From positions 2,170,001 to 2,234,000 of the forward strand of contig NC_007426.1 in the NCBI RefSeq assembly GCF_000026045.1: DNA of 64,000 nucleotides. Direction: 5' to 3'. The position numbers and the translations under genes are program-made. Below are positions 47,406 to 59,842 of this stretch, piece after piece. The notes below the pieces were generated by a model, which did no database searches, was not told the origin of the DNA, and saw only the letters and a program-made list of their open reading frames with translations. Within the stretch, counting starts at the first letter, position 1. The number at the start of each line of letters is the position of its first letter. The DNA is from Natronomonas pharaonis DSM 2160 (GTDB taxonomy: Archaea > Halobacteriota > Halobacteria > Halobacteriales > Haloarculaceae).

Positions 47406-47744
47406 TCAGTCGTCTGCGGCGGCGGCGTCGGTACCGTCGGCGTCGACATCGACTTCGTCTTCGATACTCGGCGGATACTTCCCGCGGTCGAGTTTGAGGT
47501 CCGACTGGGGACGGGCCATGCAGGTCAGGGCGTAATCTTCCCGCTCGGCATCGGTGAGTCCGCGGGCGGCCGGCTGGGTGACTTCACCCTCGATTATTTC
47601 GGCAGAACAGGCCAGGCACATGCCAACGCGGCAGGAGAACTCCTGGGCGATGCCCTCCTCGATACACCGGCTCAGGATGGTGTCCTTGTCGGAGACGGTA
47701 ATCGTCTCGCCGGTGCCGACGAACTCGACGGTGTAGTCTGTCAT
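47406..47744 (-). CDS. [2Fe-2S] ferredoxin
   Basis: A 112-residue plant-type ferredoxin. The cluster ligands are in CRVGMCLAC (C-x4-C-x2-C) with the fourth Cys in YALTCMARP. The tail of about 25 residues is very acidic. It lacks the N-terminal halophilic insertion of the major haloarchaeal ferredoxin; that larger type is fused to UspA at 55694-56866. The gene is convergent with the amidase. The partner reductase is unknown. Confidence 0.9.
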   Translation of the reverse strand: MTDYTVEFVGTGETITVSDKDTILSRCIEEGIAQEFSCRVGMCLACSAEIIEGEVTQPAARGLTDAEREDYALTCMARPQSDLKLDRGKYPPSIEDEVDVDADGTDAAAADD

Positions 47745-55693: not shown

Positions 55694-56866
55694 TCAGAGA
55701 ATCCGGTCGCGAAGCTGGTCGAGCTGCTTGGCGTTGTATACAAGCTTCACTTCGTCGGTGGCCGGCGTAGCAACACAGGTCAACCGCAGGTCCATTTCAT
55801 CGACTTCCTCGTCGGAGAGGCTACGGTTGGTCTCCATCTCGACCTCGCCGTCGACCAGTACTGCCGCACAGTTGATGCAGCCGCCACCCCGACAGAAAAA
55901 CGGCCAATCGTGGCCGTCTCTCTCAGCGGCGTCAAGAATGTACTCTCCTTTCTCGGTAGCTATCGTCCCGTAGGCGCCAGCTGGGAGGTCAGCTTCGGCT
56001 GCTTTCTCGAAGAGGTCGTCGTCTTCTAACGACCAGCCGTTGTCGTCCACGGCTTCGTAATCGAGAAATTCGACGGTAACGCCGTCCGTCTCCGGCTTTA
56101 CCGAGATAACCGGAACCGGTGAGAACCGAACCGTACGCTCGGTGACGCTCCCGAGCAGGTATTGTCTGATGCCGCCGCGTCCGTGTGCGCCCATTACGAC
56201 GACATCGATTCCAGCCTCAGCCACGTATCCAGCAATCGCCTCGTGTGGCCGGCCGCTGCGTGTTGCTGTGACGACTTCTATCCCAGCAGTTTCGCCCCGG
56301 TTGCGCACGTCGGTAACTGGCGATGGCTCCGCTTTGTCGCCGTCCGACGTGACCTGCAGTGTATGGAGCGTCGCACCGACTTCCGCCGCGAGGTCGACAG
56401 CATGCTCCGTGGCGGCCTTGGCCCCCTCGCTCCCGTCGGTCGGGACGAGGACGTTGTCGACCGCAAAATCGCGGGCGGTGTCTTCATGAACGGTTACGAC
56501 CGGAATCGGCGACTCCTTGAGGGTCTGTTCAGCCACGCTGCCGAGCAGGAACCGACCGATTCCCGTTCGCCCATGCGTCCCCATTACGATGATATCAACA
56601 TCGTGTGCTCCAGCATAATCGATAATCGAGCGATGGACCGACGTCTCCCCGCCATCGATAGTCTTCGTCTGTGGTGAAATATCGGCCTCGGCTGCGGCCT
56701 CTTTGAGCGCTTCATGGGCTCGTTCCGCCCTGTCTCCGTCGCCCGGCTCTTGAACGGAGAGGAGCGTCAGATCAGCGTCGAACAGTGCAGCCATTCGAAC
56801 GCCAACGGTTCCGGCTCGCTCCGCAACGTCGCTCCCGTCGGTCGGGACGAGAATCGTATCGTACAT
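55694..56866 (-). CDS. Tandem UspA-[2Fe-2S] ferredoxin fusion protein
   Basis: A 390-residue three-domain protein. UspA domain 1 covers 1-130 (GTHGRTGIGRFLLGSV ATP motif) and UspA domain 2 covers 137-257 (GAHGRGGIRQYLLGSV). From 263 to the end it is a full-length haloarchaeal plant-type ferredoxin, including the halophile-specific acidic insert (NGWSLEDDDLFEKAAEA). The cluster ligands are C325, C330, C333 and C364. The frame is continuous, with no gap or stop, and the joint at VSVKPETDGVTVEFLDYE is clean. A TTGATATACG box lies 27 nt upstream. I infer a nucleotide-sensing domain coupled to electron transfer. Confidence 0.9.
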   Translation of the reverse strand: MYDTILVPTDGSDVAERAGTVGVRMAALFDADLTLLSVQEPGDGDRAERAHEALKEAAAEADISPQTKTIDGGETSVHRSIIDYAGAHDVDIIVMGTHGRTGIGRFLLGSVAEQTLKESPIPVVTVHEDTARDFAVDNVLVPTDGSEGAKAATEHAVDLAAEVGATLHTLQVTSDGDKAEPSPVTDVRNRGETAGIEVVTATRSGRPHEAIAGYVAEAGIDVVVMGAHGRGGIRQYLLGSVTERTVRFSPVPVISVKPETDGVTVEFLDYEAVDDNGWSLEDDDLFEKAAEADLPAGAYGTIATEKGEYILDAAERDGHDWPFFCRGGGCINCAAVLVDGEVEMETNRSLSDEEVDEMDLRLTCVATPATDEVKLVYNAKQLDQLRDRIL

Positions 56867-57031: not shown

Positions 57032-57673
57032 ATGTCTGCAGATACAAACAACGAGCTGACACATCATTTAGCGGTCGGCATCGGTAGCGTCGGCGTCGCT
57101 GTGTTGCTGTGGGTGGTGGGGTATCACGAACAGCGAGTCGTCGGAGCAATCCCGTGGTTTCTCCTCGTCTTGGTGCTAGCCATCGGGCCGGCGGTGAAGC
57201 TTTGGCCCGGAATCAGACGCCGGGGTTCGGGGAACTTCCCGGTGAGTTGGCGGTCAGAGCTGGGAATCTGGTTTGCTATCTGGAGCGTCGTCCACCTACT
57301 GTTCGTGTTCCATGCGAGAGACTGGGACGTTATCGGCTATCTCGCCGGGATGAGCCCATGGGCGTTCGGTTCGTTCGTGGCGGTGATTATGGCGGTCGTC
57401 CTCGCAGCCACCTCGAACAACAGGGCCTACGATTACATGGGTGCGAAAGCATGGAAGTGGCATCAGACCGCCGGTACGTATGCGATTTTCTGGCTCCTCG
57501 CGGTTCACATCTACGATAGGGCCTACCTCCGGCCTGGATTCCCGTCCGAAGACCCCCTCCATTGGCTCTACCTACTCACACTCGGCCTCGTCGTTGTGCT
57601 CCAAATCGCCGCGTTCGTCAAAGTCGTTTCTCACTATCGGAAGACCGGTGAGTATCCCGCCGGGCTGGGCTAG
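57032..57673 (+). CDS. Ferric-reductase-like transmembrane protein
   Basis: A 213-residue membrane protein with about six helices. Two His-bearing helices (WSVVHLLFVFHARDW and WHQTAGTYAIFWLLAVHIYD) could ligate haem, as in ferric reductase/MsrQ-type cytochromes. No flavin or NAD domain is fused, so electrons must come from elsewhere; the divergent UspA-ferredoxin is a candidate partner. AATTATAATAGG about 34 nt upstream is the likely TATA. Confidence 0.72.
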   Translation: MSADTNNELTHHLAVGIGSVGVAVLLWVVGYHEQRVVGAIPWFLLVLVLAIGPAVKLWPGIRRRGSGNFPVSWRSELGIWFAIWSVVHLLFVFHARDWDVIGYLAGMSPWAFGSFVAVIMAVVLAATSNNRAYDYMGAKAWKWHQTAGTYAIFWLLAVHIYDRAYLRPGFPSEDPLHWLYLLTLGLVVVLQIAAFVKVVSHYRKTGEYPAGLG

Positions 57674-57828: not shown

Positions 57829-57924
57829 ATGGAATCCACGATGTCAGCGCCGCACCGCGATGGCCGGGGGCGAGCAAACGACGGGCCAGCACGCGACATA
57901 GCTGTTGCGGAACAGGGACAATAA
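57829..57924 (+). CDS. Possible 31-residue leader ORF before tauE/safE
   Basis: An ATG frame, MESTMSAPHRDGRGRANDGP and on to residue 31, whose TAA overlaps the next gene's ATG by one base (TAATG). ATTATATACA (57791-57800) gives a transcript start at about 57822, just before it. It has no known homologue. It could serve to couple translation of the transporter, or be noncoding leader. Confidence 0.3.
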   Translation: MESTMSAPHRDGRGRANDGPARDIAVAEQGQ

Positions 57925-58934
57925 TGGAACTACTCGGGCTTACCCCGCAGCTAGCGGCGCTTTTCGTCGGCTTCGGATTCATGGTCGGCGTTTTCTTCGG
58001 GTTCTTCGGGATGGGCGGGTCATTCCTTGTTACGCCGACGCTTCTGATACTCGGGTATCCGGCGCCGGTTGCCATCGGGTCGAGCATGGCATTCGTGTTC
58101 GGGACGGCGGTCATCGCGACGCTGAAGCACCACGATGTCGGACAGGTAGACTACAAGCTGGGTGCGCTGATGTTTGTCGGCATCGCGGTCGGCATCGAGG
58201 CCGGGAAGATGCTCGTCTTCTTCCTCGAGGCGCTCGGGCGGGCGGAGGTTGTCGTCGGCAGCGCGTACGTGGTACTCTTAGCCGCCATCGGCGGTGTCTT
58301 CGTCCGCAGCGCAGCCGGCGGCGACAGCGCCGACAGCGCCGACAGCGAGGGCGGCGACGGAAGCGAAGACGACATTCCAGATATTGCGAAGAAGATCAAA
58401 TCGTACACCATTCCACCAATGGTGACGCTGACCGACGGCAGCAAAGCATCGATGTGGACTATCTCGGGGGTCGGCGGCGGTGTCGGCGTCGTCTCCGGCT
58501 TTCTCGGCGTCGGTGGCGGCTTCATCCGGATGCCGGCCATCTACTACATCATCGGCGTCCCGCTTGCCGCGGCGGTCGGAACGAGCCTCTTCGGCGCGCT
58601 CATGTCCGGTGCCGTCGGCGCGTTCACCTACGGCCTCTCGGGCGTTATCGACCTCGGCGTCGTGACGGCGCTGCTCGTCGGCAGTGCGCTTGGGGCCCGT
58701 ATCGGGTCGGCGGCGACAGCCTACGTCGATGAAGACGATGTGACGATCTATTTCGGTGTCATGTTGCTCCTTGCGAGCATCGCCGTGGCGGCCGGCGAGT
58801 TGGCGACGTGGCTCGACGCGCCGGTGTTAGACACCGTCAGCTTCGTGCTTCTCGTGGGGTCGGCAGCGTTCGTGACCGCCGTCATCTTCTATTACGGCGC
58901 AACGGCGGTCCGAAACGGGACGCGGGTCGGCTAG
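57924..58934 (+). CDS. Sulfite exporter TauE/SafE family protein
   Basis: A 336-residue membrane protein with two repeated halves: FGFMVGVFFGFFGMGGSFLV and GVGVVSGFLGVGGGFIRMP carry the family GxGGG motifs. A charged, Asp/Ser/Gly-rich loop (about 130-160) separates the halves. It exports or imports sulfur oxyanions or organic acids; the exact substrate is unknown. It is followed by a convergent tandem UspA gene overlapping by 4 nt. Confidence 0.88.
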   Translation: MELLGLTPQLAALFVGFGFMVGVFFGFFGMGGSFLVTPTLLILGYPAPVAIGSSMAFVFGTAVIATLKHHDVGQVDYKLGALMFVGIAVGIEAGKMLVFFLEALGRAEVVVGSAYVVLLAAIGGVFVRSAAGGDSADSADSEGGDGSEDDIPDIAKKIKSYTIPPMVTLTDGSKASMWTISGVGGGVGVVSGFLGVGGGFIRMPAIYYIIGVPLAAAVGTSLFGALMSGAVGAFTYGLSGVIDLGVVTALLVGSALGARIGSAATAYVDEDDVTIYFGVMLLLASIAVAAGELATWLDAPVLDTVSFVLLVGSAAFVTAVIFYYGATAVRNGTRVG

Positions 58935-59782
58935 CGAGGTTGCCGTGGCCGCTCCGGCGGCACTAGCAGGACGTTCCCATCGGCGTGGGCGACGATTTCC
59001 TCCGAAACGCTACCGAGGAGCAGCCGCCGGAGCCGGCCGTGGCCGCGGGAGCCAAGCAACACCATCGTCGGCTCGTGGTCGGCTTCCGCCGCGAGAATCT
59101 CGTCGGCCGGGTCGCCGTATCGAACGTCGGTTTGGGTGTCGATATCCCACTCGCGGAGCCGGTCGGCGAGCGCTGCGAGACGCTCCTCGGGGTCGTCGTC
59201 CTCCGGGTCGGGGTCTTTCGGCGTCTGGACGTGGACGAGCGTCGCATCTTGGACGGCGGGATGTAGATACGAGAAGGTCTCGAAGGCCTGCTCGGCGTTC
59301 GAGGAGAAATCGGTCGCATACAGCGTGTGTTGGAAAAGATGCTCTCTGACGACCTCAGGGTCGTCGGTGGCCTCTTCGACCCGGTTGACGAGCAGCGGCG
59401 CAACGGCCGTTCGGGCGAGATTGCGCGCCGTCGAGCCGATAGCGCGGTTTTCAAGCGGGCTTTCACCGCGCGAGCCGACGATGATGAGGTCGGCGTCGAC
59501 CGCCTCGGCGACGCCGTTGATGCGGCGGTACGGCGTCCCGCGGACGGCATGGGCCTCGACTTCGAAGCCCGCCGATTCCAGCACGGACTGGTATCGGGAC
59601 AGCGCCGACTGGCGGCGCTCCTCGAAGTTGAGCCCCGGAATGCCGGTGTGGACGTTCGAGGGGACGACCGTCACGAGGTGGAGTTTCTCGACGCCGATGC
59701 GGCTCAGACACCGCAGGCAAGTCTCTGATTCGATGGCCGCCTCGCTGGCCGCCGAGAGGTCTGTTGCACAGACGGCTTTCAT
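58931..59782 (-). CDS. Tandem universal stress protein (UspA)
   Basis: A 283-residue protein of two Usp domains. The first has VEAHAVRGTPYRRINGVAEA and GSRGESPLENRAIGSTA; the second has GSRGHGRLRRLLLGSVSEE, a standard ATP-binding G-x2-G-x9-GS. In the first the ATP loop is less canonical. Its role in stress is inferred. AGCAATATTC about 27 nt upstream supports the start at MKAVCATDLSAAS. Confidence 0.9.
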   Translation of the reverse strand: MKAVCATDLSAASEAAIESETCLRCLSRIGVEKLHLVTVVPSNVHTGIPGLNFEERRQSALSRYQSVLESAGFEVEAHAVRGTPYRRINGVAEAVDADLIIVGSRGESPLENRAIGSTARNLARTAVAPLLVNRVEEATDDPEVVREHLFQHTLYATDFSSNAEQAFETFSYLHPAVQDATLVHVQTPKDPDPEDDDPEERLAALADRLREWDIDTQTDVRYGDPADEILAAEADHEPTMVLLGSRGHGRLRRLLLGSVSEEIVAHADGNVLLVPPERPRQPR

Positions 59783-59842
59783 ACTGGTAGTACGTGGGAC
59801 GCGGCGAATATTGCTTTCGTTCTGCAAAACGACAAGGGAGGA

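Follow-up and report, generated by a model that had tools for sequence, protein, structure and literature searches.

In the window (the whole stretch of 64,000 nucleotides of Natronomonas pharaonis that was analysed, contig 1, 2170001-2234000) two Usp domains and a complete haloarchaeal [2Fe-2S] ferredoxin are encoded by one uninterrupted reading frame. The same full-length architecture was found in 34 copies from 31 genomes when the window's family, an order sample and the Natrialbaceae are combined, and in most copies a gene for a six-helix membrane protein lies close by. On balance we judge the fused ferredoxin to be a dedicated, probably nucleotide-regulated electron donor to this adjacent membrane protein, a putative transmembrane heme conduit. 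Together the fusion and its reductase-like neighbour suggest a stress-controlled electron export through the membrane.

Architecture, distribution and origin of the fusion

The fusion, its domains and the divergent neighbour are located in the window as follows.

55694..56866, minus strand: Usp-Usp-[2Fe-2S] ferredoxin fusion, 390 aa, ATG start, no internal stop
56486..56866, minus strand: N-terminal Usp domain (residues 1-127), ATP motif GTHGRTGIGRFLLGS at residue 96
56093..56485, minus strand: second Usp domain (residues ~128-258), ATP motif GAHGRGGIRQYLLGS at residue 226
55697..56077, minus strand: haloarchaeal [2Fe-2S] ferredoxin domain (residues 264-390), cluster cysteines C325, C330, C333 and C364
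56867..57031, no strand: divergent intergenic region of 165 bp with A/T-rich stretches near both starts, conserved in related loci (TATATCAA..., TAGAATTATAAT)
57032..57673, plus strand: six-helix membrane protein of 213 aa, divergent from the fusion, a YedZ/MsrQ/STEAP-like putative transmembrane heme b protein

Pfam detects Usp (PF00582) in two stretches of the fusion (3.6e-52; 177 bits, the cut-off being 24) and Fer2 at residues 302-368 (7.9e-13). The NCBIfam model NF041393 (haloarchaeal ferredoxin Fer) matches residues 264-389 with 1.4e-58 and 196.2 bits, against a curated cut-off of 150, and is covered from position 2 to 127 of 128. In a search of PDB sequences the closest solved structures for residues 264-390 are the ferredoxins of Halobacterium (1e0z) and Haloarcula (1doi), which places the halophilic insert within the fusion, and an Archaeoglobus tandem Usp aligns with residues 21-257. 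The predicted structure of the fusion resembles tandem Usps together with the haloarchaeal ferredoxins 1e0z and 1doi. The nucleotide motif G-2x-G-9x-GS occurs in both Usp domains, at residue 96 in the first and at residue 226 in the second; the ferredoxin has the motif CRGGGCINC...C, of the pattern C-x4-C-x2-C...C, which starts at residue 325. The initial annotation had described two Usp domains joined in a single frame to a complete haloarchaeal ferredoxin with its halophilic insert and four cysteines; the 390 uninterrupted codons, the domain matches, the full-length agreement with NF041393, the structures 1e0z and 1doi and the motif itself confirm this description. In all of 27 aligned fusions, with identity as low as ~51%, G-2x-G-9x-G(S/T) is present in both Usp domains and the four cluster cysteines are kept.

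With the haloarchaeal [2Fe-2S] ferredoxins (NF041393; 1e0z, 1doi) the fusion shares the full-length match, the halophilic N-terminal insert and the four cysteines, but its ferredoxin is joined to two Usp domains, belongs to a separate clade and differs in residues that surround the cluster. The tandem Usps of A. fulgidus (3loq), M. tuberculosis (Rv2623) and T. thermophilus (TTHA0350) are the top fold matches of the Usp part and likewise have motifs in both domains; in these proteins the chain ends after the Usp domains, whereas in the fusion the ferredoxin comes next.

Within the window's own family the fusion occurs in 2 of 148 genomes, the window's and that of one congener. In the Natrialbaceae, the family of Natrialba and Natronococcus, it is present in 27 of 125 genomes (species) and 14 of 29 genera, and the full-length fusions of the order sample (394 genomes) are mostly from this family too, i.e. 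from outside that of the window. Natrialba magadii, Natronococcus occultus, Natronosalvus amylolyticus, Natronobeatus ordinarius, Natrialbaceae archaeon AArc-T1-2 and Natrarchaeobaculum sulfurireducens are among the Natrialbaceae of the set. The distribution is patchy and some copies are plasmid-borne; these are annotated at NCBI as "ferredoxin Fer", a name that hides the Usp part. As most haloarchaea lack the fusion, a general haloarchaeal trait is ruled out. In 345 genomes sampled from the phylum none was found outside the order, and a single contig scan with six short patterns, narrow as regards bacteria, returned no full-length fusion. A frameshift or chance as the source of the frame is ruled out by the recurrence of the same architecture. 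Of the two objections raised in the initial annotation, a sequencing or assembly error is excluded by the same 34 copies, and separate adjacent genes were not seen in close relatives.

Phylogenetic trees place the fused ferredoxin domains in one clade apart from the housekeeping ferredoxins (support 100/100) and the fused Usp-Usp parts in one clade against separate Usp-Usp proteins (support 100/97). According to these two trees the fusion is of single origin, and a recent chance fusion is ruled out. Clade A, to which the window copy belongs, is recovered in both trees with 74-77% identity to the window; the fusions outside it are ~51-57% identical. Compared with housekeeping ferredoxins, the fused ones are altered beside the cluster at positions 324, 329, 331, 348 and 349, with A329G in 27 of 27 and Q348R and I349S in 26 of 27, as would be expected if another redox partner is served. 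N. pharaonis has a separate ferredoxin gene at C1:624378 besides the fusion, and the other fusion genomes checked also retain one. A small Fer2-domain ferredoxin with no obvious signal peptide is located in the window ~8 kb from the fusion (47406-47741, minus strand). Elsewhere, a frame of 691 residues in genome G061 (L157:2217-4292, minus strand) has a C-terminal haloarchaeal [2Fe-2S] ferredoxin preceded by what appear by eye to be a Ser/Thr protein-kinase-like N-terminus and a winged-helix-like middle; a similar frame occurs in G060.

Pairing with the membrane gene

The membrane gene lies within 3 kb of the fusion in 28 of the 34 copies. In clade A the two genes are divergently transcribed (with 165 bp between them in the window), and the intervening region probably holds one promoter for each; in clade B, the second main group, most pairs share one orientation, the fusion followed by the membrane gene, often at 70-250 bp. 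Gene order differs between the two clades, so the pairing has outlasted a change of order. Among the Natrialbaceae (n = 125) both genes are found in 25 genomes, the fusion only in 2, the membrane gene only in 6 and neither in 92 (Fisher P = 1.8e-18), and the corresponding numbers in the order sample (n = 394) are 22, 1, 6 and 365 (Fisher P ~1e-29); as the genomes are related, these P values, uncorrected for kinship, overstate independence.

Of the six fusion copies with no membrane gene nearby, four are directly followed downstream by a gene for a two-helix protein of 70-79 aa (G364 copy 2, G431, G386 copy 2 and G469), and at two of the four an exported ferredoxin is encoded as well. The copies of G205 and G161 have neither partner gene nearby; in G205 the fusion and the membrane gene are both in the genome, far apart. 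The two-helix protein gives weak matches of the cytochrome b561 kind, and its His is conserved, with DHY or GHY and RWLH or RWGH as recurring residues.

L074:6677-6916, minus strand: two-helix membrane protein
L078:7655-7876, minus strand: two-helix membrane protein
L125:5570-5782, minus strand: two-helix membrane protein
L154:5668-5877, minus strand: two-helix membrane protein

Many fusion loci are Usp-rich clusters whose surroundings are also rich in P-type ATPase genes, and the other genes around the pair change from locus to locus. The window encodes a second tandem Usp protein (58931-59785, minus strand), separated from the fusion by the membrane gene and by the gene of a TauE/SafE-family transporter (57924-58934). 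In G161 the fusion is preceded by genes that by eye resemble Mrp-type Na+/H+ antiporter subunits (L071:150-3514, plus strand).

Relationship of the membrane protein and its variant loci

The window membrane protein has no match above cut-off in the curated family libraries (Pfam, NCBIfam), no PF01794 match in Pfam and no match among PDB sequences. In its family H12, R74, H88, H144 and H159 are invariant in 29 of 29 sequences. The spacing of 14 between R74 and H88, also invariant, agrees with the signature of the YedZ/STEAP subgroup, in which a TM3 Arg stands in place of the first heme His and a His follows 14 residues on (PMC3591440). Weak MsrQ matches were obtained for 12 of the 29 proteins (best 5e-7), MamZ matches for 21, and weak Ferric_reduct (PF01794) matches for 6 (best 3.1e-4), the window protein not being among these last. 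The AlphaFold model (pLDDT 78) has STEAP2, STEAP4, STEAP1, NOX5 and Dcytb as its top structural matches, all modest (best E 1.9e-3, TM ~0.5). Judged by its sister sequences, the residue pattern and the modest fold match, the protein is likely related to the short ferric-reductase-domain proteins of the YedZ/MsrQ/STEAP type. The positive loops suggest that both of its ends are cytoplasmic, which would bring R74, H144 and H12 near the inner face and H88 and H159 near the outer face.

In common with MsrQ/YedZ and STEAP the protein has six helices, the TM3 Arg with a His 14 residues on and a conserved TM5 His, and an outward passage of electrons through heme is predicted for it as for them. Its sequence similarity to them is weak, and H144 and H159 are 15 residues apart where the canonical TM5 His spacing is 13; because of this spacing, and because no Pfam cut-off is reached by the window protein, it is not filed under MsrQ or STEAP. 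The donor in those systems is Fre/flavin or an NADPH-FAD domain, whereas here the putative donor is the Usp-ferredoxin fusion; Fer2 modules do occur among ferric-reductase-domain architectures (PMC3591440). Unlike in MsrPQ, no conserved MsrP-type gene lies alongside: PF00174 (MsrP) proteins are encoded in all 10 genomes tested but near the pair in one only (G237, ~3-4 kb off), which gives no support to MsrP as a conserved terminal acceptor.

Membrane proteins of clade C, a divergent branch (~55-59% identical, one outlier 43%), have no fusion beside them, but often a gene for an exported ferredoxin. At five clade C loci (L118, L120, L122, L152 and L153) a [2Fe-2S] ferredoxin gene adjoins the membrane gene at 12-135 bp in the same direction. 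The ferredoxins adjacent to clade C carry a twin-arginine signal and a lipobox, e.g. ERRRLLAAMGSAGAVVLAGC in the L078 homologue, and by these signals are exported lipoproteins. The Tat/lipobox [2Fe-2S] ferredoxin family was noted at L118:6682-7161 (minus strand), L120, L122, L115, L078 and L125, several of them apparently sharing an operon with the gene of a YedZ/STEAP-like membrane protein. At a single locus, L115, a separate Usp-Usp gene, the membrane gene and a gene for a Tat/lipobox ferredoxin lie close together, the first and the last within 1.5 kb of the membrane gene, and Usp and ferredoxin fall outside the fusion's own branches. In N. pharaonis no lipoprotein-type exported ferredoxin was detected. 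The pairing of one membrane family with ferredoxins on either side is what would be expected of a transmembrane electron conduit.

Proposed function and its alternatives

The fused ferredoxin, as a cytoplasmic one-electron donor, would be reduced by 2-oxoacid oxidoreductases, dock on the membrane protein and reduce its inner heme site, from which electrons would pass to the outer site and on to an acceptor located on the outer face of the membrane or beyond it. For some lineages the acceptor may be the exported ferredoxin; for N. pharaonis, in which none of this type was detected, a metal ion, oxygen or some other carrier would take its place. By binding ATP or AMP, the tandem Usp part would modulate ferredoxin docking, oligomer state or abundance under stress, and electron export would thereby be coupled to the nucleotide state of the cell. 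What the sequences establish is the fusion, its single origin, the kept motifs, the gene pairing and, for the membrane protein, the conserved Arg/His set and a predicted fold; heme binding, the direction of electron flow, the nucleotide gating and the acceptor are inferred from these. Two claims of the initial annotation bear on this scheme. That the protein feeds a membrane reductase gains indirect support from the adjacent ferric-reductase-like (YedZ/MsrQ/STEAP-type) gene, which co-occurs with it across genera, but adjacency is no proof of electron transfer or of its direction. The supposed nucleotide sensing has two bases: the conserved ATP-binding motifs and the similarity to nucleotide-binding tandem Usps. 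Put forward tentatively, as possible yet doubtful, is the wider scheme of a flavin-free, nucleotide-gated transmembrane electron export, in which a Usp-controlled ferredoxin would reduce a YedZ/STEAP-like heme protein and this, in some lineages, a lipid-anchored ferredoxin outside.

Electrons could also flow the other way, with the membrane heme protein, fed by quinol or an external donor, reducing the fused ferredoxin and the Usp part serving as a stress-induced scaffold. The gene pairing leaves the direction undecided, and MsrQ-type proteins are able to exchange electrons with membrane quinones; the potential of ferredoxins is, however, usually too low for reduction by quinol without energy input. 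Such a reverse flow is improbable also in view of the haloarchaeal ferredoxin being the coenzyme of 2-oxoacid:ferredoxin oxidoreductases (according to references within PMC4500146) and of the characterised relatives STEAP, NOX and MsrQ, which pass electrons from the cytoplasm to the outside (PMC11031084). Even less probable is that the two genes are neighbours merely through a shared transferred stress island and functionally unlinked: the patchy distribution, the plasmid locations and the surroundings rich in Usp and P-type ATPase genes would fit, but the pair stays while the other island genes vary by locus, gene orientation differs between clades, G205 keeps both genes in spite of their distance, and clade C of the membrane gene is paired with a different ferredoxin.

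The Usp domains might, finally, be a tag for stability, oligomerisation or expression without nucleotide sensing, the membrane protein still being the electron recipient. Haloarchaea frequently have Usp domains fused to, or encoded next to, other proteins (PMC3102087, PMC12159084), and numerous fusion loci are themselves Usp-rich; against a mere tag, which we consider rather unlikely, stand both ATP motifs, intact in all 27 aligned copies at an identity down to ~51%, which argues for retained nucleotide binding. The Usp-transporter fusions described in these papers join Usp to APC permeases, FNT channels and Na+/H+ antiporters; Usp is an add-on domain there as here, but the cargo of the present fusion is a soluble electron carrier. 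The openly readable papers searched contain no report of a chain that joins Usp to ferredoxin and has a membrane partner of its own. Ferredoxin is absent from the text of the archaeal Usp survey (PMC12159084) outside the body of its Table 2 and is nowhere mentioned in the N. magadii genome paper. In the literature searched the architecture is apparently undescribed, in keeping with the initial annotation.

For Usp domains, whose molecular action is little understood, a conserved fusion to a carrier of single electrons, together with a candidate partner in the membrane, offers a directly testable output, namely the rate of heme-protein reduction with and without ATP or AMP. The pair also suggests that haloarchaea have a so far overlooked way out for electrons, masked by the annotations "ferredoxin Fer" and "hypothetical protein". 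If the wider scheme of a nucleotide-gated export is true, Usp domains would act as a direct redox switch, a defined molecular task for a poorly understood family.
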